Origin: Prevotella sp.
GTDB taxonomy: Bacteria > Bacteroidota > Bacteroidia > Bacteroidales > Bacteroidaceae
Length of the DNA: 64,000 nt
Direction: 5' to 3'
NCBI GenBank assembly: GCA_017548275.1
Contig: JAFZAH010000004.1
Location: forward strand, 1 to 64,000
Numbering within the stretch: position 1 is the stretch's first letter; every line of letters begins with the position of its first letter. A model generated the notes under the pieces. That model did not search any database and had not been told where the DNA came from. It saw only the letters and a program-made list of their open reading frames with translations. The position numbers and the translations under genes are program-made. Below, one piece after another: positions 21,566 through 51,918 of the stretch.

Positions 21566-22657
21566 TTATTGATGCTTCCTCCTCCAAAAGAAGTGATACC
21601 ATTTGAACCAAGGCTCCCATATACATTCGGCGGGGAAATAACTGACCAGACGCAGGTCACGCCAAAGGGTCTGAACATTCTTCTTGCGTTTCGACTCGGT
21701 CTCACCTCCGAGCAGACGGTCGTCGTACCGTCCGAAATTGCCTCCGGCCATGATTTCCCTCAACAGAAGTTTGCCACACCGCTCATGGGGCGGTATCACC
21801 ATCAACTGGCGGTCCATGCCCAACACCTCGGTGAGCACCCACATCAGTGCTCCTCCCATCTTGCGCATTCCTACGTGGCGCAGGTCTTTTTCTGCCTGTT
21901 CGCGCTCTTCGGCATTGGGTATGCCGTGTGTCGACAAGAGGTAATAATAATCAATGATTTGCCTTAGTCCGATGCCCTCGCGCAACACATGGTGGGCGAT
22001 ATGGGCCAGTTCATACACCACATTCATGCGCCAGGTGGGCACTGCTATCTGTCCTTCTGTTTCGGGCAGTGTGATCATGTTCTCGAACGATTCTTTTCCT
22101 GTTTCCTCGAAGAACCGTTGCAACCGTTTGTTATACCACGGACAACTCATCCAAGACGGGCGGTAATGAACCTCGATAGGTATTTTCTCCGTGGCCATGA
22201 AGTCGATGTGATGATAGAGCGCCTTTGCTTTAGGACGGATGGTGTGGATGTATTCGATGACCTTGTCGTCGCCGCCCTCCACATAGATGTCGATGTCGCC
22301 GCTATGACGGAGCAGCGGGTCGGGGTAGCGGATGGAGTTGCCCTGTCCTTTGAGCAGGCAGGAGCGGAATCCCTCTTTTTTGAAATTCCGATAAACCCAG
22401 ATGGAACGCTCGTTGGTCTTCCTGCTTTTCTTTGTGATTTGTGCGCAATATGCCATCCATTCCAGCACGTCATCGTCGGTGGGCTTGTTGGTGTCGATGT
22501 CACTGAGCCGTTGCATGCCATGCCAGCAAACGCCGGCTATGGTCTGTTGCTTGGCCCAGGACAACAGGTCGTGCCAGTCAATCTTGGCGACAGAAGCCGG
22601 CACTGTGGCGTTGTCGTTTAGGCTAAATCTCACAAATTCTAAAAACGGGGAGGTCAT
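21566..22657 (-). CDS. Nucleotidyltransferase-family protein (PF14907 type)
   Basis: A 363-residue protein of the uncharacterised NTP_transf_5 family. The minimal nucleotidyltransferase site is visible: LLKGQGNSIRYPDP (from residue 101), then HSGDIDIYVEG with Asp121 and Asp123, then the third-acid region IPIEVHYRP. Members occur in polysaccharide and peptide-modification loci and are thought to transfer a nucleotide or a phosphosugar group; no substrate is established here. It is the last gene of the glycan locus in the direction of transcription, 20 bp after the glycosyltransferase gene. Confidence 0.85.
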   Translation of the reverse strand: MTSPFLEFVRFSLNDNATVPASVAKIDWHDLLSWAKQQTIAGVCWHGMQRLSDIDTNKPTDDDVLEWMAYCAQITKKSRKTNERSIWVYRNFKKEGFRSCLLKGQGNSIRYPDPLLRHSGDIDIYVEGGDDKVIEYIHTIRPKAKALYHHIDFMATEKIPIEVHYRPSWMSCPWYNKRLQRFFEETGKESFENMITLPETEGQIAVPTWRMNVVYELAHIAHHVLREGIGLRQIIDYYYLLSTHGIPNAEEREQAEKDLRHVGMRKMGGALMWVLTEVLGMDRQLMVIPPHERCGKLLLREIMAGGNFGRYDDRLLGGETESKRKKNVQTLWRDLRLVSYFPAECIWEPWFKWYHFFWRRKHQ

Positions 22658-22677
22658 GTCAATGGTTGAAGGGCTGA

Positions 22678-23718
22678 TTATTTCCGGTTTTCCTGATTCT
22701 CCTGATTTGTCGGGGCATCCTGGTCCGTTGATGATAATTCTTTACAAACTATTGCCACAATACGGGCGTAATCGGTCTCCGTGCACTGCGTGGTGATGAA
22801 ATCATGGAACCGGTCGGCCTCGGCTTTCCGTTCATCTTCGTGTTGGAGATAGTAACGTATCTTGTCGCGCCACTGCTCGGGATCCTTCCCGCAGAGTTGG
22901 TAGGGCATGAAATATTCTTTCATCGCCTCGGTGTCGGATGTGAGCACCATGCGCCGGTTGGCGGCGGCCTGATACATCACCGTCAGGCCTGCGGGGGCAT
23001 TGATGCTCAACGGCAACACCACCAATGTGGATTGGCACAGACGGAACATAAATTCCTTATAGGGCATGTTACATCCGATTTTGACGTTTTTGGGCAGGTC
23101 ATCTCCGTGTTTCTTCATAAACGGGCGGAAGATGTGTTTGGGCATGACCATATAAAACTTCAATTCGGGCGTGATACGTATAATCTTTAGCATCAGTTCC
23201 CAATCGCGCCCGCTGGCTCCTCCGCAAAACACGATGTCTTTGTTCTTCCCCTCAGAGTAATGCGGTGTGCAATAATAATCATGATAGACATCGTGGAGGA
23301 GGGTGTATTCCACATCGATGCCGAGTTGCTTGTTGAGCCATTTGCCATAGGGCACAGACGTCACCGTGGCACGGAAATTCTTCGCTTGAAAGGCTTTTTT
23401 GCAAAGGTAACGATGCAACTGGTTTTTGAGCGTCCCGTCTTTTTTCAGCAAGATATTAAGACTAACGAACTTCCGTTTGCGGAAAGTCAATCGACAAATC
23501 CACCATGCCAACACCGCCTGCAGGTAGTGCCACGCCACGATGGTGTCCCCTTTGTCGGACGCGCGCACCGCTTTCAGACTGCCTCCGAAATGCCGCCAAT
23601 GGCGCATGTACCATTGTTGGTAGTCTCGCGAATAGATGGCCCGTACGTTATCCTCGCCCAATTCCTTGAGGAGGTATTTGTCGTCCCAACGTAAGTGATG
23701 AAAGAGGAAATAAATCAA
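22678..23718 (-). CDS. Glycosyltransferase of the surface-glycan locus
   Basis: A 346-residue cytosolic or membrane-associated enzyme with a GT-B-type layout: an N-terminal half with the WWICRLTFRKRKF helix, and a C-terminal nucleotide-sugar half with IVFCGGASGRDWELMLKII, LSINAPAGLTVMYQAAANRRMVLTS (the phosphate-binding loop with the typical glycine and helix) and a closing helix. It resembles GT4-type transferases in which the donor sugar cannot be told by eye. The gene sits between ugd and the NTP_transf_5 gene in one minus-strand run. Confidence 0.8.
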   Translation of the reverse strand: MIYFLFHHLRWDDKYLLKELGEDNVRAIYSRDYQQWYMRHWRHFGGSLKAVRASDKGDTIVAWHYLQAVLAWWICRLTFRKRKFVSLNILLKKDGTLKNQLHRYLCKKAFQAKNFRATVTSVPYGKWLNKQLGIDVEYTLLHDVYHDYYCTPHYSEGKNKDIVFCGGASGRDWELMLKIIRITPELKFYMVMPKHIFRPFMKKHGDDLPKNVKIGCNMPYKEFMFRLCQSTLVVLPLSINAPAGLTVMYQAAANRRMVLTSDTEAMKEYFMPYQLCGKDPEQWRDKIRYYLQHEDERKAEADRFHDFITTQCTETDYARIVAIVCKELSSTDQDAPTNQENQENRK

Positions 23719-23725
23719 TGTGGAA

Positions 23726-23795
23726 TGTTGAATGACGAATGTTGAATGGTCGTTCCGCGATGAAGAATGACGAATGAAGAATTGTCGCTCCGCGG
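23726..23795. repeat. Two tandem 35-bp repeats
   Basis: Copy 1 (23726-23760) and copy 2 (23761-23795) match at 29 of 35 positions, with the core GAATGACGAATG present in both. Each copy ends in a TCCGCG block. They fill most of the gap between ugd and the glycosyltransferase gene. Confidence 0.8.
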
Positions 23796-23811
23796 CATCT
23801 TGAAAACTACT

Positions 23812-23847
23812 CCCTCCACTCGGGGTGGGTTGGGGTGGGGGCTCCTA
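23812..23847. repeat. G/C-rich hairpin repeat, copy C
   Basis: C-rich block followed by runs of GGGGTGGG, GGGGTGGGGG, with a short imperfect stem. It lies 25 bp beyond the ugd stop codon and matches the arrangement of copies A, B, D and E. Confidence 0.45.
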
Positions 23848-23871
23848 AGTGGGTAAGGTGGAGGTTTCCTG

Positions 23872-25125
23872 TTAGTCTCGGTGGAAGAGGTCGCGGGTAT
23901 AGACCTTGTCCTGCACGTCGTCGAGTGCCGATTCGTAGCGGTTGGCGATGATGGCGTTGCTCTGACGTTTGAATTCCTCGAGGTCATTGACCACAAGACT
24001 GCCAAAGAATGTCGTGCCGTCTTGCAGGGTCGGCTCGTAGATGATGACAACCGCGCCTTTTGCTTTGATGCGTTTCATCACGCCCTGTATGCTGCTCTGG
24101 CGGAAGTTGTCGGAGTTGGTTTTCATCGTCAGACGATAAACTCCGATGACGCAGCGGCGCTCCTCTGTCGGAGAGAATCCTCCTCGCAGGCTATAGTCGT
24201 AATAACCCGCTTTGGCCAGCACCCGGTCGGCAATGAAGTCTTTGCGGGTGCGGTTGCTCTCCACGATAGCCTGAATCAGGTTCTCGGGCACATCCTCGTA
24301 GTTGGCCAACAATTGCTTGGTGTCTTTCGGCAGACAGTAGCCGCCATAGCCGAACGACGGGTTGTTGTAGTGGCTGCCGATACGCGGGTCAAGACCTACG
24401 CCATGGATAATATCTGCGGTGTTGAGGCCCTTCATCTCCGCGTATGTGTCTAACTCATTGAAGAAACTTACACGGAGTGCCAGATAGGTGTTGGCGAAAA
24501 GTTTCACGGCCTCAGCCTCGGTGAAACCCATAATCAGTGTCTCAACATCTTCCTTCAGTGCTCCCTCTTTGACCAGACGGGCGAAAGTCTCTGCCGCCTC
24601 TTTCATTCTCTCGTCGTAGAGGTCTGTTCCCACGATGATGCGACTGGGGTAGAGGTTGTCGTAGAGGGCACGGCTCTCACGCAGGAACTCAGGTGCGAAA
24701 ATGATATTCTGTGAACCTGTCTTCTTGCGGATATGCTCTGTGAATCCCACGGGGATGGTTGATTTGATGACCATGATAGCGTCGGGATTGCATCGCATCA
24801 CCAGATGGATGACCTGCTCCACGGCAGAGGTATCAAAATAGTTGCGTTTGCTGTCGTAGTTGGTGGGCGTCGCGATGATGACGAAGTCGGCCCCCTTATA
24901 CGCTTGCTCGGCATCGAGCGTGGCGGTCAGGTTCAACGGCTTGTTTTGCAGATATTCTTCTATCTCTTTGTCGGCGATGGGCGACTGCCTGCGGTTGAGC
25001 ATCTCCACCTTCTCGGGGATGATGTCCACCGCTGTCACCTGATTATGCTGTGCCAGCAATACGGCGAGTGACAGTCCCACGTAGCCAGTACCGGCCACTG
25101 TTATGTTGTATGATTCTTTTTGCAT
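23872..25125 (-). CDS. ugd: UDP-glucose 6-dehydrogenase
   Basis: Oxidises UDP-glucose to UDP-glucuronate with two NAD+. The 417-residue protein has the NAD-binding motif GTGYVGLS (12-19), the linker FAPEFLRE, the central [23 protein letters not shown] helix and the catalytic cysteine in GGYCLPKD (Cys264). The C-terminal UDP-sugar domain is intact. It is followed in the pathway by the UDP-glucuronate 4-epimerase encoded immediately upstream (25199-26236), and both supply acidic sugars to the locus glycan. Confidence 0.95.
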
Positions 25126-25165
25126 CAGTTAAATATGAATAAATTATGTGCTCAATGATTTGTTT

Positions 25166-25197
25166 GCCCTTCCCTCGGGGAGGGTAAGAGTGGAGGC
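25166..25197. repeat. G/C-rich hairpin repeat, copy D
   Basis: CCCTC-GGG-GAGGG stem-loop followed by GTAAGAGTGGAGGC, one base before the stop codon region of the epimerase gene. It belongs to the same dispersed hairpin family as copies A, B, C and E. Confidence 0.5.
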
Positions 25198-25198
25198 T

Positions 25199-26236
25199 TT
25201 ATCTCAATGGATTCTTGTCCGATTTATACCACTTGATGAAACGTACGATACCATCATGCAATGTCACATGGGGCTTGTAACCTATTTCTGTTTCCAGTTT
25301 TGTCGTGTCAGCGTTGGTCATATATACATCGCCCGGTTGCATGGGCATCATCACTTTCTCCGCTTTTTTGCCCAAGGCGGTTTCTATCTCCGTGATAAAG
25401 TCTATAAGTTTAACGGGGTGAGAGCAACCGATGTTATAAACACGGAACGGCACACTGTTAGCGCAATTCTCTGCTACAGGTGGCTGGTCCAGACATTGGA
25501 TGGAACCGAAAGCGATATCATCGATGTAAGTGAAGTCGCGTATCATGTCGCCGTGGTTGAACACCTTGATGGGCTCGCCTGCAGAAATGGCTTTGGCAAA
25601 CAGCATCGGCGCCATGTCGGGACGGCCCCACGGACCATATACCGTGAAATAGCGCAATCCCGTGGCGGGGATGCCGTAGAGTTTACTGTAACTGTGCGCC
25701 ATCAGTTCGTTGGCTTTCTTAGATGCGGCATACAGACTGACGGGAGCATCCACCTTGTCATCCTCTGAGAAAGGCGCCTTGGTGTTCATACCATAGACCG
25801 AACTCGATGAGGCGAATAGCAGATGCTTCACGGGGTTGTTTCTGCAAGCCTCAAGGATATTGAGGAAACCTGTCAGGTTGCTTGTCAGATAGGAGTATGG
25901 GTTGGTGATGGAATAACGCACGCCTGCCTGTGCCGCCAGATTGACCACCTTGTCGAAATGTTCTTCGGCAAACAGACGGTCGATGGTCTCCTTGTCTTCC
26001 AATGCCATACGCTGAAAACGCAGGGTGGGGTAGGTGGCACTTTGGTATGTGCTGCCGCTCTCGATGTCGGTCTTTCCGTCACCGATACCCAACTCCTCCA
26101 AACGGCCGAGTTTCAGGCGGATGTCGTAATAGTCATTGATGTTGTCGATGCCGACCACCTCATCGCCTCTCTCGGCGAGCAGTCCGGCTATCTTTGAGCC
26201 GATAAATCCTGCGGCTCCGGTCACTAATATTTTCAT
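25199..26236 (-). CDS. UDP-glucuronate 4-epimerase-type SDR
   Basis: A 345-residue extended short-chain dehydrogenase/reductase. The NAD motif GAAGFIGS (7-14), the Ser/Tyr/Lys triad (SSSSVYG and YAASKKANE), and the long loop with INDYYDIRLKLGRLEELG are typical of UDP-glucuronate 4-epimerases (CapI type), which make UDP-galacturonate. It directly precedes ugd in the transcript, completing the route UDP-glucose to UDP-glucuronate to UDP-galacturonate. Confidence 0.9.
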   Translation of the reverse strand: MKILVTGAAGFIGSKIAGLLAERGDEVVGIDNINDYYDIRLKLGRLEELGIGDGKTDIESGSTYQSATYPTLRFQRMALEDKETIDRLFAEEHFDKVVNLAAQAGVRYSITNPYSYLTSNLTGFLNILEACRNNPVKHLLFASSSSVYGMNTKAPFSEDDKVDAPVSLYAASKKANELMAHSYSKLYGIPATGLRYFTVYGPWGRPDMAPMLFAKAISAGEPIKVFNHGDMIRDFTYIDDIAFGSIQCLDQPPVAENCANSVPFRVYNIGCSHPVKLIDFITEIETALGKKAEKVMMPMQPGDVYMTNADTTKLETEIGYKPHVTLHDGIVRFIKWYKSDKNPLR

Positions 26237-26256
26237 GCAATGAATAGCGTTTAGGG

Positions 26257-27015
26257 CTATTTCTTATCAAATGGATTATGATAACAATGAAACAGTTGCT
26301 TGGTGTAATACCAGAAGAATTTCATGTCATCGACGAAATATCGCTTGAATAGGCGTTTGGGCTCTTTGAAGAAACGGTAGAGCCATTCCATGCCGATTTT
26401 GCGGTAGAAGGTCGGGGCGCGTTTCAACGTGCCAGCCTCGAAGTCGATGGTGGCACCGAGCGCCATCCACACATCCACGCCATGCATACGGTCTTTCCAT
26501 TTCATAATCCATTTCTCCTGTTTTGGAGCACCCACACCCACCAGAACCACATTGGCACCGCTCTCATTCACGATGCGTGTCAGTTGTTCGCATTCTTCTT
26601 CGTTCTTCTCAAAGCCAAACGACGGAGAGTGCGCTCCCACGATAATTTCACGGCCCATACGCTCGTTGATGCGCTCCATCGCTTTCTTTGCGATGCCTTC
26701 GCGTGCGCCCAAAAGAAAAATCTTACAATTAGGGTCATCCTTGTGGTATTCATAGTAAGCAGTAAAGAAACTGCTCCCGGGTATCGCCTCAGGGAATGAC
26801 TTCTTCAATAGTTTCGACAGGAAATACAGGATGCGGCTGTCGCACACCACCCATTCCGCCTTTTGGTAGCACTCGTAGAACTCTCGGTCTTTCTGAAGTT
26901 TAATCAGATGGTCCAAGTTGGGCGTAATCAGCACTCCCTTTTTCAATTGTTCCAACAATTCCGCCTGTGTGATGGCGAGAACGTCGACATTGAGTATTCT
27001 AATGGTGTCAGTCAT
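26257..27015 (-). CDS. WecG/TagA/CpsF-family glycosyltransferase
   Basis: A 252-residue peripheral membrane enzyme. The family core is clear: TPNLDHLIKLQKDREF, the catalytic-site region VVCDSRILYFLSK, the motif IFLLGAREGIAKKAMERI and VLVGVGAPKQEKWI. The C-terminal stretch with KRAPTFYRKIGMEWLYRFFKEPKRLFKRY carries basic and aromatic residues used for membrane attachment. WecG and TagA add ManNAc(A) to GlcNAc-PP-undecaprenyl, the linkage step for enterobacterial common antigen and wall teichoic acid. Here it probably adds the second sugar to a lipid-linked primer. Confidence 0.92.
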   Translation of the reverse strand: MTDTIRILNVDVLAITQAELLEQLKKGVLITPNLDHLIKLQKDREFYECYQKAEWVVCDSRILYFLSKLLKKSFPEAIPGSSFFTAYYEYHKDDPNCKIFLLGAREGIAKKAMERINERMGREIIVGAHSPSFGFEKNEEECEQLTRIVNESGANVVLVGVGAPKQEKWIMKWKDRMHGVDVWMALGATIDFEAGTLKRAPTFYRKIGMEWLYRFFKEPKRLFKRYFVDDMKFFWYYTKQLFHCYHNPFDKK

Positions 27016-27027
27016 AGTATTATGTTG

Positions 27028-27831
27028 TTATTCTTCTTGTTTTTTCACTCCCTCCACAAACATCGGTTTATCAGTGGTGACGATGACTCCCCTGCGGATG
27101 TAACTGTAGATAGCATCTTTGTCATTAACTGTCCAGACAATGGTTTTGAGCCCCAATGTTTTTGCTTCTTTTATCCATAGCGGGTGCTCATCGTAAATGC
27201 TATCTTTATAGTCTATTCCCCCATAACGGCTCTGTTTCACTTTGGTGGGTGACATGTTGCCGGTCAAGTAAAAAGTGATTCCGCCCAGCCCTTTCTTCCT
27301 TAATTGGTTACAAACACTTCTATGGGAACCAATGAATAACACTTTTTCTAAAACACCGTATTCTTGAACGAGAGCGACAAGTTCATTTATATTACAGTCT
27401 TTAATGTCTAACGCCAATTTGACACGGCTGTTAGCCATTTTCAGTTCCTGTAAAAAATGCTCTAATTGAGGTAATGGCTCTCCGTTCGATAACGTGTGAT
27501 CCCCCAATTCCATATATGGCGTTCTAGAGATGGATAAACCGTCAAAGTTGTCATCATGCGAAATGACAAACACCCCGTCTGAAGTCTGTCTCACATCACA
27601 TTCTGATGCATAGATGTTCAGCAAGAGTGCCTCTTTGAATGCTGCCAAAGAGTTTTGTGGGGTATTCTTGTCATGATGGTATCCACGATGGGCGATAATA
27701 GGCTGTTGACCATGTAATTCAATGTCGATAATGATAGGCTCCACATCATCTTCTTCTGTGCTACAACCATAGATTGTGCACATCATCAGTAATTTTATTA
27801 GCAGTGTCATCATCTGTGTCGAGTTTTTCAT
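27028..27831 (-). CDS. Glycerophosphodiester phosphodiesterase-like lipoprotein 1
   Basis: A 267-residue lipoprotein (Cys23, TIYGC). The GDPD active-site pattern is present: AHRG (His48, Arg49), ASECDV (Glu77, Asp79) and ISHDDNFDG (His92). Family members split glycerophosphodiesters into glycerol 3-phosphate and an alcohol; extracellular GlpQ enzymes of Bacillus and Staphylococcus also trim glycerol-phosphate teichoic acids. This copy follows a paralogue (27880-28713), and the pair lies next to a TagB/TagF-like gene, hence a possible trimming role. It is shorter than many relatives and starts just after the promoter-like box TAATTTTG on the minus strand (27844-27837). Confidence 0.88.
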   Translation of the reverse strand: MKNSTQMMTLLIKLLMMCTIYGCSTEEDDVEPIIIDIELHGQQPIIAHRGYHHDKNTPQNSLAAFKEALLLNIYASECDVRQTSDGVFVISHDDNFDGLSISRTPYMELGDHTLSNGEPLPQLEHFLQELKMANSRVKLALDIKDCNINELVALVQEYGVLEKVLFIGSHRSVCNQLRKKGLGGITFYLTGNMSPTKVKQSRYGGIDYKDSIYDEHPLWIKEAKTLGLKTIVWTVNDKDAIYSYIRRGVIVTTDKPMFVEGVKKQEE

Positions 27832-27879: not shown

Positions 27880-28713
27880 TTATTTCGCTTGTTCGTTCTC
27901 ACGCATGTCAATGGCCTGAACCAACGTGACAGGTTTATTTGAACTGAACAAACACCCTTGGTCGATGTATTTGGCCATTACCTGAGGATTAGTAACTGAG
28001 CCTAAAATGAGTTGCACGCCTAATTCTTTTGCCCGGTTAACCCAATCAACTTGACCTTCGTTAACCATGTCTTCCTCCACATAATAGAACCCCCCGATAC
28101 CATCATTTTTCACTTCTTCGGGTGTATGGCTGTGTCCTACGAAATAAGTGATGTTACCATATCCTTTTTTGGCGAAGGTTAGGCATTTGCTATAGGAATA
28201 TGTGATAAAAATAACTTTCTCGATGACTCCCCGTTGATTAACGGCATCCAGCACATCGTTGACTGAGGCGTTACTTTTCAGTTCAATTACCAGTTTAGTA
28301 TTGGTGGGGGAGTTGCCCACTTCGATGAGGAAATCGTCGAGCGTAGGTAGTTTCTCGCCGTTGGCTAAAGGAAATTGTGCCAATTGCTCGTAGGTCGATT
28401 TCGTGATGTTAAGACCATTATAAGTATTGTCGTGGCTGATGACTAATATACCGTCCTTTGTTTTCCAAACATCACATTCCGACCCGAATATATCCAATGC
28501 TAATGCTTCTTTCAGAGATGCTATCGAATTTTGAGGATGTCCGTTCTGATACCATGACCCGCGGTGCGCAATGATAGGATACTTTACTGGCGAAAGTACA
28601 GCGGGAATGAAAGAAGGAACACGCGGCTCCTGTATGCTGTTTATCGTCTCAGAGTTACACCCGTAAGAGATGAAGAGCATCAAAGCAGGAAGAATAAAGT
28701 GTAATTTTTTCAT
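27880..28713 (-). CDS. Glycerophosphodiester phosphodiesterase-like lipoprotein 2
   Basis: A 277-residue lipoprotein (Cys19, ISYGC), paralogous to the neighbour at 27028-27831. Active-site residues AHRG (His50, Arg51), SECDV (Glu79, Asp81) and ISHDNTYNG (His94) are conserved. Its start codon overlaps the stop of the TagB/TagF-like gene (28710-29900) by 4 bp, so the two are translationally coupled. That coupling supports a link between polyol-phosphate polymer synthesis and its removal. The natural substrate is not known. Confidence 0.9.
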   Translation of the reverse strand: MKKLHFILPALMLFISYGCNSETINSIQEPRVPSFIPAVLSPVKYPIIAHRGSWYQNGHPQNSIASLKEALALDIFGSECDVWKTKDGILVISHDNTYNGLNITKSTYEQLAQFPLANGEKLPTLDDFLIEVGNSPTNTKLVIELKSNASVNDVLDAVNQRGVIEKVIFITYSYSKCLTFAKKGYGNITYFVGHSHTPEEVKNDGIGGFYYVEEDMVNEGQVDWVNRAKELGVQLILGSVTNPQVMAKYIDQGCLFSSNKPVTLVQAIDMRENEQAK

Positions 28714-43949: not shown

Positions 43950-44534
43950 TTATTTAATCAATCGTTTAATAAACGCTTTTGTTTTTAGTTTAATAGCCCG
44001 TATGGTGAATTCAAACTTCAAACGAAAAACTGAATGTGGGCATCCGTCAAACCATTTAACAAACACTATGTTGTAATGGTCTCCGTATTTTCTCAAGGCA
44101 ACGGGTTTGAAACCGTTTTTTTTCACCACCTCAATCTCCCTCAAATTGTCTTTATTGGTGTCCAAAGCCACTTTGTTCATTCCGTAAGACTTTGCTGTTT
44201 CCTCACGAAGTTGATTCATCTTTTTGTAGATACCCATTCCTTGGTGTGTCGGCAATACGGCATCAAAACAAAAGTAGGCATATTCTTCAGCACCACACCA
44301 TAACTTCATTCTTTTTTTTATGATGGCCGCTGTGCCGATTAGTTGATGGTCATCCAAAGCGACAACCATTATTCCCTTTCCTTCGACTTTCTTGCGTATT
44401 TCCTCTCCGGGAAGAGACGGATTGCCCATAAACACTCCGTTCTCTCGGTTTTTGGCATGAGCGTTCCAGATGACTTCATGTATCTCATCCCATGACACTT
44501 CGTCCGGCTTCTCGACAATTTTAATTTCAGACAT
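43950..44534 (-). CDS. GNAT-family acyltransferase
   Basis: A 194-residue protein of the GNAT fold. The cofactor-binding motif region THQGMGIYKKMNQLREETAKSYG and the following strand KVALDTNKDNLREIEVVKKNGFKPV are typical; it also has a Lys-rich C-terminal tail (KLKTKAFIKRLIK) that may touch the membrane. It could acetylate an amino sugar or amino acid, or act as an aminoacyl transferase; GNAT genes next to ATP-grasp genes are known from comparative genomics as parts of amide-forming surface-modification systems. Confidence 0.85.
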   Translation of the reverse strand: MSEIKIVEKPDEVSWDEIHEVIWNAHAKNRENGVFMGNPSLPGEEIRKKVEGKGIMVVALDDHQLIGTAAIIKKRMKLWCGAEEYAYFCFDAVLPTHQGMGIYKKMNQLREETAKSYGMNKVALDTNKDNLREIEVVKKNGFKPVALRKYGDHYNIVFVKWFDGCPHSVFRLKFEFTIRAIKLKTKAFIKRLIK

Positions 44535-44567: not shown

Positions 44568-45650
44568 TTAACTCGGAAACCATGTGTTCGGTCTTGGCCA
44601 TAACTCCCTGATAATCCTCTCGGTATAGTCGCCCATTCCTGATTTGAAAGCAGATTGACTCAAACCGGGATTGGAGTTGAACTCTATCAGAATGGGTGAA
44701 CCATCTTCCTCTATGGCAACATCCCAACCCACAATGTTGAATTGTGGCAATTGTAAGTGCAGGCGCTTTACCATTTCAATGGCCTTGTCATAGGATGGTA
44801 TCTGGTAATTCTCCAAAACAACTCCGGAATCTGTTTTCGTGATGTCGTCCTCTGAATAACCACCGAAAGCGGTTTTACCTAATTTGCCGTCTTTAGAAAT
44901 CGTCGTGCTGATACCGCCTGCGCACTGATTGTCTATTACCTGCCCGCTTCGGCCTATACGTACTACGGAATAGATGATCAACACTTCCATGCCCGACCGG
45001 TACGAAAGAATACGCAGTGTGTTTAGTGAAGTCGGGTTCAGAGCCGCCATATCCTTATGCTGACGTACACATTTTTGTATCAGGAAATTCTTCTTGTATT
45101 GCTTAAATAATTGTTCGATGGACATCCCGTTCAGACTTGTCACCCCGTCTTTTACTTGGAAGATTTGTACACCATGCCCTTTCGATTCTTTTGAAGGTTT
45201 GATGATGACCTTCTCCAAGTTCTGACATGCAGCGATTGCCTCCTCTTCGGAAACAGGTTTGCCCTCAAAATAATAATAACCGTTGATGTTTTTCAAAATG
45301 GAATGGGCAATGTTCTCGTTCGGGAACAATAGACTGCACATGTTCTTATCGCCCAAGATCCCACCGGCAGAGTGAATGTTCGCTCTTGGTACCAACTCAC
45401 AATGATAGAAATTGGCCGGAACATACTCTTTGGTGAAGTGTCCTGTCCTTGAATAGAAATACTCGTGGCAATGAAGGGGAACTTTTCTCCCAATCATGCT
45501 TTTATAAAAGTCCTGTATTTCTTTCTTTTGTTCCCGTGTAAGTTTCTTACGTTCTTTTAGGTCCTTGAAATTTCTGGTGATTTTCAATTTCCGGCGGCGC
45601 ATCTCTATTGACTTGCGCGTCTTGACTATCAAACGATTAATAAAATTCAT
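44568..45650 (-). CDS. Sugar-transfer-associated ATP-grasp (PF14397 type), copy 1
   Basis: A 360-residue protein of the sugar-transfer-associated ATP-grasp family. Shared marks with the two paralogues are EFYSRTG-type segments (CHEYFYSRTGHFTKEYVP), VIIKPSKESKGHGVQ (ATP-binding loop), LNPTSLNTLRI and ILIEFNSNPG (Mg-binding end). The frame is open from a GTG at 45701 that overlaps the preceding gene; the ATG at 45650 (MNFINRLIVK) avoids that overlap and gives a 23-nt gap, so it is preferred. Predicted to ligate an amino acid or other carboxylate to a glycan or its precursor. Confidence 0.88.
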   Translation of the reverse strand: MNFINRLIVKTRKSIEMRRRKLKITRNFKDLKERKKLTREQKKEIQDFYKSMIGRKVPLHCHEYFYSRTGHFTKEYVPANFYHCELVPRANIHSAGGILGDKNMCSLLFPNENIAHSILKNINGYYYFEGKPVSEEEAIAACQNLEKVIIKPSKESKGHGVQIFQVKDGVTSLNGMSIEQLFKQYKKNFLIQKCVRQHKDMAALNPTSLNTLRILSYRSGMEVLIIYSVVRIGRSGQVIDNQCAGGISTTISKDGKLGKTAFGGYSEDDITKTDSGVVLENYQIPSYDKAIEMVKRLHLQLPQFNIVGWDVAIEEDGSPILIEFNSNPGLSQSAFKSGMGDYTERIIRELWPRPNTWFPS

Positions 45651-45673
45651 GTTGATATATCTTGTTGACTTGA

Positions 45674-46759
45674 CTAATATTTTGTATTGGGTCTTGGCCA
45701 CAATTCCCGGATGATTCTTTCTGTGTATTTACCCATACCAGATTTGAAAGCGGATTGGCTAAGCCCGGGGTTGGTGTTATATTCTATCAGGACTGGCTCA
45801 CCGTCTTCTTGGATTGCGATATCCCAACCTATCAGGTTCGTAAATGGCAACTTCATGTGCAGCCTTTTGACCATATCCATGGCTTTATGATACGAGGGAA
45901 CCTCATATCCTTCCAAGACGATGCCAGTGTCTGTTTCCAAAATGTTGTCTTTGTTGTATCCGCCAAAACCATACTTGCCGAGTTTGCCGTCTTCGGAGAT
46001 GGTCGTGCTGATTCCGCCCGCACTTTGGTTGTCAATGACTTGTCCTTTCCTTCCGATGCGGATAACGGCATAAATAATCAGCACTTCCATGCCGGAACGG
46101 TATGAAAGCACTCTTATTGTGTTGACGGAGGTCGGGTTTAGGGCAGCCATCCTCTCATGTTGCTTGATACACGATTGGATGATAAAATTCTTAGAGTATT
46201 GTTTGAACAATTGGCCGATGGTCAATCCGTCAATGTTTGTCACACCGTCTTTTACGGTGATAGCCTGCACACCATGTCCCTTTGATTGTAAGGTGGGTTT
46301 GATAATCGCCCGCTCAATATTACTGCAAGACGCAATAGCCTCTTCTTCCGAAACAGGTTTGCCTTCATAGTAGTAATAACCGTTCATGTTTTTGAGAATG
46401 ACATGTACTGTGTTCTCTTTTTCCAACATGATGTCTTGCATGTTTTTGTCGGATAATGCGTGCACATATGGAAAACAGTTTGCTTTCCTTACCAGTTCGC
46501 AATGATACAAATTCGTCGGAACATATTCTTTGTTAAAGAAACCTGTTCTGGAATAGAAATACTCATGACTATATAGTGGAACTCTACGTCCTATTAAATT
46601 CTGGTAAAACTCCTGAATTTCCTTTTTCTGTTCTTTCGTCAACTTCCTGTGTTGTTCCAGTTTCTTGTTGCTGCTCGTGATAACTCGCTTCCAATTCCTG
46701 GAATCGATATGGTATTCAATCCTTTTGAACAACCGTTTAAGAGTTTTTTTTAACGTCAT
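45674..46759 (-). CDS. Sugar-transfer-associated ATP-grasp, copy 2
   Basis: A 361-residue close paralogue of the protein at 44568-45650; the two share runs such as LTKEQKKEIQEFYQ, HEYFYSRTG, LNGYYYxEGKPVSEEEAIA and the end GLSQSAFKSGMGxYTERIIRELWPRPNT. This identity over the full length indicates a recent tandem duplication. ATP-grasp landmarks are ATIIKPTLQSKGHGVQ and VLIEYNTNPGLS. Function inferred as for the paralogue, perhaps with another substrate. Confidence 0.9.
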   Translation of the reverse strand: MTLKKTLKRLFKRIEYHIDSRNWKRVITSSNKKLEQHRKLTKEQKKEIQEFYQNLIGRRVPLYSHEYFYSRTGFFNKEYVPTNLYHCELVRKANCFPYVHALSDKNMQDIMLEKENTVHVILKNMNGYYYYEGKPVSEEEAIASCSNIERAIIKPTLQSKGHGVQAITVKDGVTNIDGLTIGQLFKQYSKNFIIQSCIKQHERMAALNPTSVNTIRVLSYRSGMEVLIIYAVIRIGRKGQVIDNQSAGGISTTISEDGKLGKYGFGGYNKDNILETDTGIVLEGYEVPSYHKAMDMVKRLHMKLPFTNLIGWDIAIQEDGEPVLIEYNTNPGLSQSAFKSGMGKYTERIIRELWPRPNTKY

Positions 46760-46851: not shown

Positions 46852-48036
46852 TTAGAAAAAAGCGGAGTTCTGTTTTTTATCGGAGAAAGTGGCTTCAATC
46901 TTTGAAACATATTTTAGTTTACCCTTCTTTATAATATGTTCCATGATTTCATCTAAGTCTTCTTTGGAGAACATTGGACCATGGGCTAGTTGTCCCGTGC
47001 CAAGACCAGGGGCGAAATTGTATTCTATTACCAAAGGATGTCCGTCGGGGGTTACTGTCATGTCCCAGCCGATAATCCCAAACTGAGGAAAACGGGTGTG
47101 CAAAAACTTAACGGCTGCCACCACTTTGTCATAACAGGGGATAATGCCTGGAACACTCTCGTCTAAAGGTGTTGTTTGTAAGTTGCGGTAGCGATGAACC
47201 TCTCTCTTAACTGTTCCGTCGGGTTGAATGGGGCAGAATCCACCGCTTCCCTTCGGATCGTCAGCGTTGTCATATACTTTCCCTTTCCCTCCAAATCTTT
47301 GTGAGGCATAGAGCACTTTCACGTTCCCGTTGAAATCTTGGTAGGTTGTAATTCTGATGGTGTTGACAGAAGTGGGATTAAATGCGGCCAGATAGGGGTG
47401 TTGAATGATTACTTTTTGAACGGTAAAGTTGTTGCCGTATTTCTTGAACAATTCTTCTAGGTGTTCTCTTGTGAGTTCATTGGCCGATACTTTGACGACT
47501 CCACGTCCATGCCAAGAGTCAATCGTCGGTTTGATTATCACGTCTTCTTTTAATTGTAAAATCGACTCGATGGATTCTTCTCTTGTGCAAAGACTATCTT
47601 CAGGGAGGTAATATCTTCCGTTGTCACAATAAGTTACATATTCTGGTATCCTGATGTCAATGTGTTCCTGTGCCTCTTTGATGTTAAAAAGGCGAGGAAA
47701 CATATTCTTGTCACAATATGCGACACGCCACTGAGCAGGGTTAAGATAAGGATATATCAACTTCTCGTATAACGCAATTGGCAGGTATAGGTCAGATTTA
47801 ACACCTGTACAAGCGGCATAATATTCACTTTCCAAAGACGAGAACTTATAGCCAAATTGTTTGAAATACGGATTGATTTCCTTTGCATATTTTTCCCATT
47901 CAAATTCCGGGTCCATCATTTTTTTGCGGAAACGTTGCATGCTTTCTTTGTATAGTTTCTGCTCGATAGAAGGTTTCAATCCTTTACAAATCTTCCACGA
48001 CAATGATGACGCTTTTTTTCTTAATTTGTTAATCAT
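46852..48036 (-). CDS. Sugar-transfer-associated ATP-grasp, copy 3
   Basis: A 394-residue more distant member of the same family. The ATP-binding part VIIKPTIDSWHGRGVVK, LAAFNPTSVNTIRI and the Mg-binding end HPLVIEYNFAPGLGTGQ are conserved, while the first 110 residues differ from copies 1 and 2. The gene overlaps the Wzx start by 8 bp (48029-48036), meaning that the ATP-grasp proteins are expressed together with the flippase. It is therefore a regular member of the glycan pathway. Confidence 0.88.
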   Translation of the reverse strand: MINKLRKKASSLSWKICKGLKPSIEQKLYKESMQRFRKKMMDPEFEWEKYAKEINPYFKQFGYKFSSLESEYYAACTGVKSDLYLPIALYEKLIYPYLNPAQWRVAYCDKNMFPRLFNIKEAQEHIDIRIPEYVTYCDNGRYYLPEDSLCTREESIESILQLKEDVIIKPTIDSWHGRGVVKVSANELTREHLEELFKKYGNNFTVQKVIIQHPYLAAFNPTSVNTIRITTYQDFNGNVKVLYASQRFGGKGKVYDNADDPKGSGGFCPIQPDGTVKREVHRYRNLQTTPLDESVPGIIPCYDKVVAAVKFLHTRFPQFGIIGWDMTVTPDGHPLVIEYNFAPGLGTGQLAHGPMFSKEDLDEIMEHIIKKGKLKYVSKIEATFSDKKQNSAFF

Positions 48037-49522
48037 TTTTTTGTATGTTTTTTTGTTTCTTTCTTTCCCAAAACTTGAACTTTGAAGGAATAATTGTCAA
48101 TAAATACAACGCTGAGTCTGGTTTAACGATAAATGTATAACCTAAATATAAAGACACAAAAATGACGAATTTCAAGATGCCGTCGACATAAACACTCAGA
48201 TGCAACCATGAAACGCTAAAATAGGTGATAGCGGCAAATAAGGCAGATGTGATAAGCATCGGGGACAAGTCCAACAATTGTTGTGTCCATTTGTAACCGA
48301 TGTGCTTTGACACCAGTCCGATATTTACAAAATAACAAAACCAGTTGTACATGACCACACCGGCCAACAGTCCCCACATGCCAAACAAATAAAGGCCTCC
48401 AATAACGAATGTCAGACCGAACGAGCGCTTTATCAGCGTCCAGTAAAACATGGTCTTACTTTTACCGATAGCGGCGATAGACTGTGTGTTGACAGATTGC
48501 AGACAGTTTGCCAGACCGACCAGACACAACACTTGAAAAAAAGGCACGCTCTCAAGCCACCTGTCGGAATAGAGCAGCAAAAATACGGGTTTGGCTATCA
48601 ACATCATCAAACACATGAGCGGAAAAGTAATATATGCAATCGATGTGGTGAGTCGCTTAATCATATTCGCCAGTCTCTTTTTGTCATCTTGTACTTCTGC
48701 GTATAAAGGGTAAGTGATAGATGTCAAGACCGAGGAGAGGGTATTAGAGGCCAAATTCTCTGTCCTCATGGCTTTTGAGTAATACCCCAGTATCTGTGGA
48801 GAATAAATTTTCCCGATGAGCAGTGCATTCAGTTTAGAGCAAAAACTATTAACCAAATGGGTTAGGAACATAAAGAAACCAAAATTGAACAGTTCCTTAA
48901 ATGATTTCCACGAAAAGACCCATGACGGTCGCCATTTGAGGTAGAACCAAAAAACAATAGCAGGTACGATGCCTCCGAGAAGATATTGCGCTACCAACGC
49001 CCAGACACCAAACCCCATAAAGGCCATGGTAACTGTTATGACTAGAGCAACGAGGGACGTGATAATCCTGACAATGGCAAGAATCTTAAACTTTAGTTGT
49101 TTCTTCAGTTGGTTGCGCTGAATCAGGTTGAGTGCATAGATAAACAAGATGAGACCTTGTACACGCAGCACGTCACGCAGAATGGGGATGTCGTAGAATC
49201 TCGCAATGGCAGGGGCTGAGAAAAATAAGATGGCATACATGACAAACGACAAGGCCAAATTCCACCAGAAAATGGTGGAGTAGTCGGTTTGTGTAGGCCG
49301 CTTTTTCTGAATCAAGGCAGAACCAAAACCTCCGTCTATGAATGCCTCGGCCACTACCATAAAAATGGTCAGCATACCTATGCAACCATAGTCAAATGGT
49401 GTGAGCAGACGGGCCAGGATTATGCCCAAGATGAACTGAATGCCCATCTTTGAGAATTTTTGGATTGAAGTCCAAACCATTCCCGAAGCCGCCTTCTGCT
49501 TGAGACTTTTCTGTTTAGCCAT
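48029..49522 (-). CDS. Wzx-type lipid-linked oligosaccharide flippase
   Basis: A 497-residue integral membrane protein of the MOP (MATE-like) superfamily with about fourteen hydrophobic segments. The start KQKAASGMVWTSIQKFSKMGIQFILGIILARLL and GGFGSALIQKK are typical of lipopolysaccharide-type exporters. It moves lipid-linked units to the periplasmic face for the Wzy polymerase at 34703-36007. Wzx and Wzy genes in one run show that the locus makes a Wzx/Wzy-dependent surface polymer; no ABC exporter is seen. Confidence 0.93.
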   Translation of the reverse strand: MAKQKSLKQKAASGMVWTSIQKFSKMGIQFILGIILARLLTPFDYGCIGMLTIFMVVAEAFIDGGFGSALIQKKRPTQTDYSTIFWWNLALSFVMYAILFFSAPAIARFYDIPILRDVLRVQGLILFIYALNLIQRNQLKKQLKFKILAIVRIITSLVALVITVTMAFMGFGVWALVAQYLLGGIVPAIVFWFYLKWRPSWVFSWKSFKELFNFGFFMFLTHLVNSFCSKLNALLIGKIYSPQILGYYSKAMRTENLASNTLSSVLTSITYPLYAEVQDDKKRLANMIKRLTTSIAYITFPLMCLMMLIAKPVFLLLYSDRWLESVPFFQVLCLVGLANCLQSVNTQSIAAIGKSKTMFYWTLIKRSFGLTFVIGGLYLFGMWGLLAGVVMYNWFCYFVNIGLVSKHIGYKWTQQLLDLSPMLITSALFAAITYFSVSWLHLSVYVDGILKFVIFVSLYLGYTFIVKPDSALYLLTIIPSKFKFWERKKQKNIQKND

Positions 49523-49530
49523 TTAAAATA

Positions 49531-49580
49531 TCAACTTAGGTTGAGTCAAGCGTGGTTGATGTTTTTGATGTTTTCTATTT
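49531..49580. repeat. Direct repeat flanking the ATPase gene, left copy
   Basis: Bases 49531-49580 match 50719-50768 almost fully (for example GTGGTTGATGTTTTTGATG in both). This copy contains the 3' end of the ATPase gene, including its stop codon. Confidence 0.85.
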
Positions 49581-50706
49581 GGTCGTTTTCGCGTTTGAGC
49601 CAGAGTTCAAACACCGGATCTACAAATGTGTAACCATTATTTGACTTCTCTATGAAATCTTTTTCAATGAGCGTTTTTTTATTGCGTGCTATCGTCTGGC
49701 TGCCACCTAACTCATATCGTGAGATGGTGGCCTTGGCGTTAAGACGTTGCTCTCCATGAATCAATGCTCTCAGCATAGCTCGTTGAGAGGGGGCTAATGC
49801 TTCAACTTCACTTTCAAACACAGGAGAATTGGTGTCTATCAGCGTCTCGGTCTGCTGGGCTATGATTTCGTCTGTTACGGTGTCTTTTGTGGCACTCCAG
49901 ACAAAGAAACTCAGTTGTTGAACATACCAAGAATGGCATTTCACAACATCACAGATGCGCTTGGCTTGGGCTACACTGATGGTTTTTCCGTAGTCAGAAA
50001 ACCCCTTTTGGATATATGGAATCCAATGCTGTTCAGATATTTTGGTGATGTACATAATCTGGCCAAAACGATAGAACGGATGGTGCGAATTCTCAAAAAT
50101 GTCCAGCATCATGTGGCGCTTACTTCCGTAAAGGCAGTAATTGACAGCCTGATGCTGTTGCCAGACGGAACGCAACATCCCTTCTATGTGAGGCCATCCA
50201 GGTAATTTAGCCAATTGTTGAAATTCATCAATGCAAATGATAACATGAAGTCCGCGCTGTTGGGCTATTCTCTCTGGTAAGTGCAGTATCTCTTCTGCAC
50301 TTTTCTTCAGTGGTTGATAACTCAAATCCAATTCCAAAGCATTTAAAGGGTCGCTCTTAAGGGTGATACTCGGTGTAAATGCCTGAAGGTATTTTTTCAC
50401 CCATTCGATGCTTTTCTTCAGTGAAGAGGACAAACCATTGACTATAGAGGTAGCGTATGTGTTATAGAAATCGGTCTCGCTATGGATGCGGAATGCGTCT
50501 ATATAACATACACGGACCGTGTCATCTTCCTCACATAATTCGTTCATAGCAGCCTTTACCAATGAAGATTTTCCCCAACGTCGTGGTGAAATGAGCATCA
50601 CGTTGATTCCGTGTGAAAGGAAATTGATCAGTTGACTGCGCTCTTCTGCGCGGTCAATAAAATTATCCCGTTCAGCCAAATATCCATATACAAACGGTCT
50701 GTCCAT
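49546..50706 (-). CDS. AAA-family ATPase with C-terminal winged-helix domain
   Basis: A 386-residue cytosolic protein of the archaeal-type ATPase family (PF01637). P-loop SPRRWGKSS (40-48), Walker B with HVIICIDEFQQ (about 155), and an arginine-rich lid; the C-terminal part (about 305-375, PSQRAMLRALIHGEQ, NKKTLIEKDFIEKSNNGYTFVDPVFELWLKR) is a winged-helix-like domain. Such proteins are common accessory genes in Bacteroidota with unknown function. It sits inside the glycan transcript between Wzx and the opine-dehydrogenase gene, and is flanked by direct repeats, so it looks inserted rather than part of the pathway. Confidence 0.88.
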   Translation of the reverse strand: MDRPFVYGYLAERDNFIDRAEERSQLINFLSHGINVMLISPRRWGKSSLVKAAMNELCEEDDTVRVCYIDAFRIHSETDFYNTYATSIVNGLSSSLKKSIEWVKKYLQAFTPSITLKSDPLNALELDLSYQPLKKSAEEILHLPERIAQQRGLHVIICIDEFQQLAKLPGWPHIEGMLRSVWQQHQAVNYCLYGSKRHMMLDIFENSHHPFYRFGQIMYITKISEQHWIPYIQKGFSDYGKTISVAQAKRICDVVKCHSWYVQQLSFFVWSATKDTVTDEIIAQQTETLIDTNSPVFESEVEALAPSQRAMLRALIHGEQRLNAKATISRYELGGSQTIARNKKTLIEKDFIEKSNNGYTFVDPVFELWLKRENDQIENIKNINHA

Positions 50707-50718
50707 TGTTTAAAAAGT

Positions 50719-50768
50719 CAACTTGGGTTGAGTCAAGTGTGGTTGATGTTTTTGATGCTTACTATCTG
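50719..50768 (-). pseudogene. Relic 3' end of a second ATPase copy (right direct repeat)
   Basis: Read on the minus strand in frame, it encodes SIKNINHT and a stop, nearly the same as the ATPase C-terminus NIKNINHA. The rest of that gene is absent. This is best explained as the remains of a tandem ATPase duplication shortened by deletion, leaving the tail as a direct repeat of 49531-49580. Confidence 0.6.
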
Positions 50769-50832
50769 AGTGGTTCCTAGGATTACCTAAGTTTCACTAT
50801 GGATTTCTAGACGATCCTTTGTTCTCTGGCAT

Positions 50833-51918
50833 TTATTCCGTGATGGCTTTCACGATGTCTTCTTTGGTCACGTTGTCTTTGCCCAAAAGATATTGGATGG
50901 TGCGTGACTTGGATTTCAAGTCTTTGTTGAGCAATGCCGATGCCAAAGCCATGATGGCTTCCTGAATAGAGGTGTCTACGCCCAAAACCTTACCGATGGA
51001 GATATACAATCCCAGTCCCATGGGCACATCCTCGTTGATGTAGCGGTGGTCGATAAACGAAGGACCTTTGTTAGATGACTCGGCAAACGAGTGGAACACA
51101 TCCATAGCGGGGATGCTCAGGTCATCTGTGTTGCGCCATTTGGCAGCCTCGAAATAATCGAGTGAGTCGCAGCCGAAGGCATTCAGTATCTCGTTCTTTT
51201 TCACGTCAAACGCCTTAATCACGTTGATGACAGAAGGCGTAAATGCCTCACGGTACATCCAGAATTCACCCTTGCTATACTCAATGCGCGATGCGGAGAA
51301 GAGGAGGCCGATGGGGTGGACTATCATGTTAGGATTGTGCAGCGCCGACTCCAAGATGTTTTTACGGAGGTATTTCGTGTTGTCAAAACACTGCGACAGC
51401 AGACCAATGACATAGTCGCCCTTGCTCACTGGCAGCACGCTGACCGCATTGCGTGGGTTGTAGAAGGTGATGCGCACGAACTTGCCGTCAACGATACGTC
51501 CGTTGTATGCCGTTGTTTCGCACTCTCCATAAATCACGTCTTTGTGAATGTATTTCTTGAAGATAAGACTTCCCATGTAACCCGGCACAAGCACGATAAT
51601 CTGTCCGTCGCGGACATACGGCGCAATCAACTGCGCCACATCCTCATGTTGGCTGGTAGTGGTCATTACAAACATGATGTCGGCAAATTCTACCGCCTTT
51701 TTCACGTCGCGTGTGATAAACGACATCTTGGCGGTATATTCTTTGCCGCCATTGGTCAAATCGACCACGTCGTACTCGTTCTTTTCGGCTATTTTGTTGA
51801 AAAACGACATGTTACCGTAGTCGGAGGTCTTTAATACTCCCACTTCGATTCCTTTCTCAAATAACTTGGCGGCATGGATAAGTCCTGAGTTGCCGCTGCC
51901 AATGACTGTAATTTTCAT
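50833..51918 (-). CDS. Octopine/nopaline dehydrogenase-family protein
   Basis: A 361-residue NAD(P)-dependent enzyme. The N-terminal motif VIGSGNSGLIHAAKLFEKG (7-25) binds the nucleotide; the middle has LVPGYMGSLIF and GECETTAYNGRIV; the C-terminal half with PIGLLFSASRIEYSKGEFWMYREAFTPSVINVI, MDVFHSF and the HRYINEDVPMGL segment matches octopine dehydrogenase-type opine enzymes, which condense an amino acid with a 2-oxo acid. It is the first gene of the run that ends with the glycan genes and precedes the ATPase by 126 bp. It could make an opine that an ATP-grasp ligase then attaches; this is inference. Confidence 0.85.
   Translation of the reverse strand: MKITVIGSGNSGLIHAAKLFEKGIEVGVLKTSDYGNMSFFNKIAEKNEYDVVDLTNGGKEYTAKMSFITRDVKKAVEFADIMFVMTTTSQHEDVAQLIAPYVRDGQIIVLVPGYMGSLIFKKYIHKDVIYGECETTAYNGRIVDGKFVRITFYNPRNAVSVLPVSKGDYVIGLLSQCFDNTKYLRKNILESALHNPNMIVHPIGLLFSASRIEYSKGEFWMYREAFTPSVINVIKAFDVKKNEILNAFGCDSLDYFEAAKWRNTDDLSIPAMDVFHSFAESSNKGPSFIDHRYINEDVPMGLGLYISIGKVLGVDTSIQEAIMALASALLNKDLKSKSRTIQYLLGKDNVTKEDIVKAITE

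Follow-up and report, generated by a model that had tools for sequence, protein, structure and literature searches.

Gene content and layout of the locus

The window analyzed here is a 64,000-nucleotide stretch of Prevotella sp. DNA (assembly GCA_017548275.1, contig JAFZAH010000004.1, positions 1 to 64,000). The locus under study, between positions 21566 and 51918, holds 28 genes, all of them on the minus strand, with 97% of the stretch coding and intergenic gaps of -28 to +153 bp. All 28 frames are open. An earlier note on this DNA had described a contiguous run encoding a Wzx flippase, a Wzy polymerase, a WecG/TagA-type transferase, two TagB/TagF-like proteins, TarI/IspD-like and TagD-like cytidylyltransferases, a LicD-type transferase, and two GDPD lipoproteins; when the 28 proteins were searched with hmmscan against Pfam, and 19 of the 28 also against NCBIfam, every one of these families was found above its Pfam cut-off. 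The family motifs are intact in those proteins checked, namely both TagF-like proteins, LicD, both GDPDs, and both cytidylyltransferases. The locus further encodes five ATP-grasp proteins, an opine dehydrogenase, two acyltransferases, a classical short-chain dehydrogenase/reductase (SDR), and an AAA ATPase.

Alcohol-phosphate surface polymers are best known from Gram-positive cell walls. Judged from its sequence, we consider it probable that this Gram-negative locus specifies a surface polysaccharide of the Wzx/Wzy-dependent kind, with an alditol (or amino-alditol) phosphate in its repeat unit, and the previous inference of a phosphopolyol glycan is likely right in outline. Counted in favor of this reading is the presence, within one locus, of two cytidylyltransferases of different families, each accompanied by its own reductase.

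The TarI-like cytidylyltransferase and its reductase

The TarI/IspD-like cytidylyltransferase (30932-31660) scored 193.6 bits against the NCBIfam subfamily NF001183, "D-ribitol-5-phosphate cytidylyltransferase" (cut-off 166), and its gene overlaps by 4 bp that of an extended SDR (29907-30935; PF01370, 4e-38). It is not the housekeeping IspD: a separate protein at 53855-54598 passes the ispD cut-off (TIGR00453), and a phylogenetic tree separates the two. Among solved structures, 8v4g and 8v4h lie closest to the SDR (E 5e-36), and 2b69 (7e-18) follows 18 orders of magnitude behind. Both closest structures are HS5.17 of Campylobacter jejuni, which, according to PMC10918830, converts cytidine diphosphate (CDP)-6-D-fructose to CDP-6-D-glucitol; that paper also predicts that pairs of PF01128 and PF01370 proteins yield CDP-glucitol or CDP-mannitol. 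The locus has the same arrangement of adjacent PF01128 and PF01370 genes, the latter for an HS5.17-type reductase, as do HS5.18/HS5.17 of the C. jejuni HS:5 CDP-6-D-glucitol pathway and Mnp1/Mnp2 of Streptococcus pneumoniae 35A. We compared 18 residues, being ligand contacts or active-site comparisons named in PMC10918830, by eye on an alignment. Ten are identical (Arg56, Lys60, Ser100, Glu140, Arg164, Tyr167, Lys171, Thr195, Arg208, and Arg233 of HS5.17), four are conservatively replaced (Thr98 by Ser, Asp212 by Glu, Thr227 by Ser, and Tyr295 by Phe), and four differ (Thr for Asn34, Tyr for Met139, Ser for Gln196, and Lys for Phe226).

Placement of the cytidylyltransferase in a tree of 51 sequences gives no support to the idea that the pair is simply HS5.18/HS5.17. 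It groups (98/91) with Clostridia TarI-like proteins and falls outside the branches of the available SDR-partnered IspD-like proteins, the tree being without HS5.18 and Mnp1. Some members of the wider group (94/97) have zinc alcohol dehydrogenases encoded next to them, which we take to be TarJ-type, as in TarI-TarJ. Nine neighbor genes were tested, chosen for an adjoining open reading frame (ORF) of ~340 amino acids, and seven are zinc alcohol dehydrogenases, one of the seven adjoining a sequence that does not belong to the wider group; the close branch of the TarI-like protein has no confirmed zinc dehydrogenase neighbor. Note that the tree group labeled MDR predates the Pfam check and by mistake includes L174 and L166, which have a 2-hydroxyacid dehydrogenase and a glycosyltransferase next to them, respectively; L176, a long row, also lies apart from the wider group. 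Three of the Clostridia proteins that group with the TarI-like protein, the closest to it among the Clostridia sampled, are fusions with an HMGL-like (DRE-TIM) domain (L152:469-2208, L153:1501-3240, and L154:481-2211; by Pfam for L152, with the other two alike by sequence). In a sample of 295 genomes from this order, 13 others gave TarI-like matches at E 1e-25, and since their identity is at most 34%, the gene may have come from a foreign source. The GC content (0.49 for the pair, 0.45 for the locus, and 0.50 for the rest of the window) gives little hint on this.

The pair could of course make CDP-ribitol in the ordinary manner, with the SDR replacing TarJ. We regard this as possible but doubtful; it concerns the identity of one alditol and is compatible with an alditol-phosphate polysaccharide. 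The subfamily score and the tree position of the cytidylyltransferase, within the group having zinc alcohol dehydrogenase neighbors, speak for ribitol, but the SDR is by a wide interval nearest to a CDP-ketose reducer, the prediction for PF01128 with PF01370 in PMC10918830 is glucitol or mannitol, and the close branch is without a confirmed zinc-dehydrogenase neighbor. The candidates for the alditol of this pair are therefore ribitol, arabinitol, glucitol, and mannitol. The specific suggestion of glycerol or ribitol in the earlier note is not established: the cytidylyltransferase groups with TarI-type proteins, but the SDR is closest, among solved structures, to a maker of CDP-glucitol, and the TagD-like domain, described below, is tied to an oxidoreductase. 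On contig 11 of the same genome (L052), an IspD-like gene (8692-9411), one listed ORF, and a weak Glyphos_transf match (11457-12812) may hint at a further locus for a phosphate-bearing glycan.

The TagD-Gfo fusion and its partners

The second pair comprises a fusion protein (38957-40321), in which a TagD-like domain (PF01467, 8e-19; residues 1-126 match TarD, 2b7l, E 4e-38) is joined to a Gfo/Idh/MocA oxidoreductase (PF01408, 1e-19), and a classical SDR (38208-38945; PF00106, 3e-21) encoded 11 bp away. The AlphaFold model of the fusion has a predicted local distance difference test (pLDDT) score of 89; its nearest folds are 3e9m and dihydrodiol dehydrogenase, with the nucleotide-sugar ketoreductase KijD10 at rank 7. 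The nearest relatives are from Prevotellaceae metagenome-assembled genomes (MAGs), at 81-85%, and full-length relatives of at least 48% occur in 6 of the 295 genomes of the order, this genome included. A scan of one genome per species over 84,980 species gave at least 580 relatives among at least 590 pattern matches, perhaps not all of them fusions. The best 80 of the at least 580 (loci L055-L134) come from Bacteroidales, Fibrobacter, and Clostridia, largely from herbivore-gut MAGs; one of them, L084 of Xylanibacter muris strain PMUR, encodes a fusion with 70% identity to that of the window and also has a LicD gene. L059, L069, L110, and L113 have no full-length fusion ORF and were excluded from the neighbor counts, which thus cover 76 loci; L085, whose ORF had been assigned wrongly, was kept there but excluded from the motif counts and the tree, which hold 76 rows (the window plus 75 loci). 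Several fusion loci end at contig ends, where gene absences may be overcounted.

Both cytidylyltransferase motifs, HxGH and RTxG[IV]SS, are kept in all 76 aligned rows, and the Gfo half of the window fusion keeps the Rossmann glycine motif as GISGAGRIA. The idea of a Gfo half that has lost its function in all fusions was rejected, as the window fusion and the relatives aligned (L085 aside) retain GxGxxA/G, although one of its glycines is lost in L013 and L014, two loci that carry a HisC-like aminotransferase. A glycine of the Rossmann motif is likewise lost in the Gfo halves of L044 and L046, where a C-terminal PAPWWKTDYFE stretch is kept; near these fusions are HisC-like class-I aminotransferases (L044:17423-18481 and L046:18507-19568) that score under the hisC cut-off.

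In flanks of up to 10 kb, LicD lies near the fusion in 42 of the 76 loci and a TagF-like gene in 34, with one or the other in 59. A classical SDR was found in 44/76 and a class-V aminotransferase in 24/76 (PF00266 in all five members given to Pfam): 41 loci have the SDR only, 21 the aminotransferase only, three both, and 11 neither. The SDR gene directly follows that of the fusion in 35 loci, with a median overlap of 4 bp and an overlap of exactly 4 bp in 23 of the 35; the aminotransferase gene adjoins the fusion in 19 loci (12 upstream and 7 downstream), again with a median overlap of 4 bp. It is downstream in an eight-row clade that holds Fibrobacter and branches from within the SDR-type fusions; in another clade, of 19 Bacteroidales rows, it is mostly upstream, L115 and L122 having it downstream. 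On the tree, the aminotransferase-only label requires seven changes, four of them forced by the starred branches, or four changes if loci with both genes are counted as aminotransferase. Strict exclusivity of the two partners cannot be taken as proven: a plain Fisher test gave 5e-8, but there are only three to four phylogenetically independent pairs, for which the median p of a sign test was 1. Identification of the class-V aminotransferase as PhnW or BhcA was also rejected, the four members tested scoring far under the NCBIfam cut-offs.

The pattern of either an SDR or an aminotransferase suggests that a carbonyl intermediate at a branch point may be either reduced or aminated. Its source would be either dihydroxyacetone phosphate entering the TagD domain or CDP-glycerol oxidized by the Gfo domain. 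Given its fusion to an oxidoreductase, the TagD domain may in the end yield something other than plain CDP-glycerol. A fuller proposal, which we advance as speculation and regard as rather improbable in its entirety, is that the fusion is central to a donor pathway, so far undescribed, which proceeds via a CDP- or phosphate-linked three-carbon ketone (such as CDP-dihydroxyacetone); the SDR partner would lead to CDP-glycerol of a different stereochemistry and the aminotransferase partner to CDP-aminoglycerol (serinol), with LicD or TagF-like enzymes placing the units in glycans of Bacteroidales, Fibrobacter, and some Clostridia. The fusion is an uncharacterized two-in-one enzyme, with no assay of it in the literature searched, and the titles and abstract beginnings listed from the open-access literature yielded neither a locus of this kind nor a TagD-Gfo fusion in Bacteroidota. 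The fusion and its exchangeable partner are the part most worth following.

Transfer, assembly, and decoration of the repeat unit

Both TagF-like proteins, A (28710-29900; PF04464, 1e-45) and B (36009-37178; PF04464, 3e-44), score ~150 bits against a Pfam cut-off of 22. The motifs HG.G.KK (HGVGFKK in A, HGFGPKK in B), KLHP, and ITD.SS (ITDFSS and ITDYSS), which we take to hold the catalytic histidines, are present in both. Their solved relatives are remote: TarL (8va1), TagF (3l7i), and Cps3D for A, and Bcs3, TarL, and Cps3D for B, residues 26-356 of which align to residues 4-335 of Bcs3 from Haemophilus influenzae type b (E 1e-12). Polymerases of the Bcs3/Cps3D type are multidomain proteins, with chains of 1149-1173 residues, whereas the locus proteins have only 389 and 396 amino acids and a single Pfam domain each, and are accompanied by Wzx and Wzy. 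Because they are short and lack the multidomain polymerase architecture, we read the pair as adders of alditol phosphate to the repeat unit rather than polymerases.

A third candidate transferase is LicD (32819-33598; PF04991, 8e-36), which contains DDDMDF. Its only NCBIfam match is a cholinephosphotransferase (69 bits versus a cut-off of 225), and relatives of LicD transfer phosphocholine; together with the aminotransferases at some fusion loci, this would fit a glycan in which LicD adds aminoalcohol or choline phosphates, the TagF-like proteins use other donors, and the phosphodiesters contain no alditol. We think this unlikely. At E 0.001, none of the 28 proteins matched a choline or ethanolamine kinase or phosphoenolpyruvate mutase, the locus encodes two cytidylyltransferases of alditol type together with reductases, and the partner of the window fusion is an SDR, not an aminotransferase. 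Two putative lipoproteins of the GDPD family (27028-27831, PF03009, 2e-15; 27880-28713, PF03009, 8e-11), both having HRG and E.DV..T.DG..V..HD, could trim or recycle surface phosphodiesters; in the first, a Cys ends a signal-like stretch, and in the second, the lipobox is weak by eye and does not fit a simple pattern.

Export by Wzx and Wzy rather than TagGH, as previously claimed, is borne out at the level of family evidence by the flippase (48029-49522; PF13440, 1e-97) and the Wzy-type polymerase (34703-36007; PF04932, 7e-12); no ABC transporter match was obtained among the 28 locus genes with Pfam, the rest of the genome not having been searched for one. The same note had placed the initiating phosphoglycosyltransferase elsewhere, and indeed none of the 28 proteins matched Bac_transf or Glycos_transf_4 in Pfam. 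A profile search of the remainder of the genome, in an assembly that is 87% complete, found three Bac_transf genes (one each on contigs 2, 6, and 40) and two Glycos_transf_4 genes (contigs 2 and 22). Not all five can be kept as initiators: the contig-22 gene lies amid genes whose N-termini resemble, by eye, ftsZ, murG, and ftsW and is thus probably MraY, leaving four plausible ones outside the locus. The Bac_transf gene of contig 2 is followed by Poly_export/SLBB (Wza-like) and Wzz genes, with the WecA-like gene ~12 kb further, and that of contig 40 is near a Wzc-like protein. As WecG-type enzymes usually act after WecA-type ones, the contig-2 WecA-like gene is a first guess for the starter. 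The gene content thus supports a putative CDP-polyol-dependent, Wzx/Wzy-exported glycan with its initiating transferase encoded elsewhere.

The families TagA, TagB/F, and TagD occur together here, as in the wall teichoic acid pathway (TagO/A/B/D/F/GH). A polymer of that kind, in which the TagB/TagF-like pair would prime a linkage unit built by WecG and polymerize poly(glycerol-P) or poly(ribitol-P) on it, has on its side the WecG/TagA protein (26257-27015; PF03808, 8e-54) and two Glyphos_transf proteins in a single run, as well as a TarI-like protein above the ribitol-5-P cytidylyltransferase cut-off. It is nonetheless quite improbable. Wzx and Wzy are encoded within the locus in place of TagGH, its TagD is fused to an oxidoreductase, and the many decorating genes suit a heteropolymer repeat unit. 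Moreover, the WecG/TagA protein, although above the cut-off of its superfamily (TIGR00696), reached 95 bits against 350 for the TarA equivalog, and the two TagF-like proteins scored 65 and 67 bits against 550 for TarF, 39 and 46 against 500 for TarB, and 52 and 56 against 1000 for TarL. By the tests run, which are of sequence profiles, the locus falls outside the Tag/Tar system.

In the favored reading of an alditol-phosphate polysaccharide, a lipid-linked sugar started by the phosphoglycosyltransferase encoded elsewhere would be extended by WecG/TagA and the GT4 glycosyltransferase (33601-34713; PF00534, 3e-19). The TarI-like cytidylyltransferase and the HS5.17-like reductase would supply one CDP-alditol donor, and the TagD-Gfo fusion and its SDR another, from which the two TagF-like enzymes and LicD might each add one alditol phosphate (or a short chain) to the unit. 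The ATP-grasp ligases, the GNAT protein, the opine dehydrogenase, and the acyltransferases would attach amide and acyl groups; Wzx would then flip the unit, Wzy join the units, and the GDPD proteins cleave phosphodiesters at the surface.

Several observations weigh against this reading. The TagF-like proteins are remote from characterized enzymes and under three NCBIfam equivalog cut-offs, LicD relatives use other donors as well, and the known pathway suggested by the TarI-like protein is not the one suggested by its SDR partner. The TagD domain of the fusion (residues 4-126 in this match) reaches 124.4 bits, under the TIGR01518 cut-off of 165.4. Neither LicD nor TagF is in the flank of 17 of the 76 fusion loci, some of those flanks ending at contig ends, and the SDR cluster is loose, with 21 of 50 members matching the window SDR (blastp, 1e-8) and the SDR of L057 absent from its matches at 1e-6. 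Lastly, the usual Gfo EKP lysine is Thr in the window fusion, also when aligned to 3e9m, and over the 76 rows this position is Lys in 5, Thr in 56, and Ile in 11. Structures of KijD10 mutants at the EKP lysine have been solved, as entry titles state, and these mutants reportedly keep some activity; loss of the lysine is for that reason no proof of a loss of redox function.

Among known systems, the locus would work like pneumococcal-type Wzy capsules with alditol phosphates. Those capsules are assembled by Wzx/Wzy with LicD- or TagF-like transferases; C. jejuni exports its polymer by another route than a Wzx/Wzy locus. The CDP-alditol donors (CDP-arabinitol and CDP-mannitol) of the capsules are a feature in common, but the host of the locus is Gram-negative, and the fusion enzyme and the ATP-grasp and opine dehydrogenase genes set the locus apart. 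FKTN- and FKRP-type transferases are LicD-like. The pneumococcal donors are described as products of Mnp1/Mnp2 (PMC10918830) and abpA/abp1 (PMC10118250). The dystroglycan ribitol-phosphate pathway (ISPD, FKTN, and FKRP; PMC4873967) likewise combines an IspD-type cytidylyltransferase with transferases as a donor-transferase set, but is eukaryotic, acts on a protein-linked glycan, and is without TagF. The implied rarity of such genes in Gram-negative bacteria did not hold: Glyphos_transf was found in 51 of the 295 sampled genomes of the order (about a sixth; 50 over the cut-off), which makes the phosphopolyol claim less surprising, and Gram-negative TagF-like capsule polymerases and the H. influenzae type b capsule machine have been published (PMC8262930 and PMC10299916). 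CDP-glycerol is mentioned 47 times in a study of the HS:1 capsule of C. jejuni (PMC11924219), and in the available parts of a 2025 review of gut surface polysaccharides glycerol phosphate is named only under Lactobacillaceae (PMC12413058). If the favored reading is true, many Bacteroidales and Fibrobacter carry phosphate-charged, possibly amino-alditol-bearing surface glycans, which would broaden the range of bacteria with "teichoic-like" chemistry, give the recurring fusion gene a role, and offer enzymes for new CDP-alditols.

The decoration genes precede that of the fusion in reading order. They encode three sugar-transfer-associated ATP-grasp proteins (46852-48036, PF14397, 6e-27; 45674-46759, PF14397, 2e-41; 44568-45701, PF14397, 6e-43), a GNAT acetyltransferase (43950-44534; PF00583, 9e-10), an ATP-grasp ligase barely above its cut-off (42615-43823; PF15632, 8e-7), a putative lipoprotein of family DUF4886 (41613-42587; PF16227, 1e-23), and a further ATP-grasp ligase (40331-41539; PF02222, 4e-7). 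The protein at 45674-46759, the only one of its kind tried, has no PDB relative at E 0.1. A similar run, in the order ATPgrasp_ST, GNAT, PGA_cap, DUF4886, two ATP-grasps, GDPD, fusion, SDR, TagF, one further gene, acyltransferase, and WecG, is present in the Prevotellaceae MAG RUG812 (L057), in which the protein within the ATP-grasp cassette at L057:4527-5666 is of the poly-glutamate capsule type. Genes of the cassette are rare at other fusion loci, with ATP-grasp of either kind in at most 5/76, GDPD in 5/76, and WecG in 4/76. The two membrane acyltransferases are at 31776-32789 (PF01757, 1e-30) and 37201-38205 (PF01757, 8e-22).

The opine dehydrogenase (50833-51918; PF02317, 2e-31; 1bg6, 1e-26) has counterparts directly beside Wzx in L194 and L195 (two genomes of one genus, 63-65% identity), and this suggests that the repeat unit bears an N-(carboxyalkyl) amino acid; in the window locus, the AAA gene separates it from Wzx. 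It was rejected as a member of the fusion cassette, as none of the 76 fusion loci has one in its flanks. Distant opine dehydrogenases of genomes of the same order lie near ATP-grasp-like genes (L188:2553-3794, L190:2553-3800, and L189:3439-4056), the latter labeled by profile match in L189 and by a look at the sequence in L188 and L190, hinting at opine-amide building outside this locus. The AAA ATPase (49546-50706; ATPase_2, PF01637, 3e-9) stands inside the polysaccharide run, and an 81% relative is found in L055, likewise in a capsule-type locus. That the whole is a mosaic with several genes past function is very improbable: the mixed ancestry of the TarI-like/SDR pair and the AAA ATPase within the run would suit it, but 28/28 frames are open and motifs are kept where checked.

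The remaining genes, at the downstream end of the run, encode an NAD-dependent epimerase (25199-26236; PF01370, 3e-54), a protein of the UDP-glucose/GDP-mannose dehydrogenase family (23872-25125; PF03721, 2e-33), a glycosyltransferase-like protein (22678-23718; PF13524, 4e-7), and an uncharacterized nucleotidyltransferase of family NTP_transf_5 (21566-22657; PF14907, 2e-26). Just downstream of the locus (18363-21281) is a gene whose large product combines Endonuclease_1, chitobiase C-terminal, and Big_2 domains, and a protein with a Microbial PARG catalytic domain is encoded outside the locus at 62177-62986.

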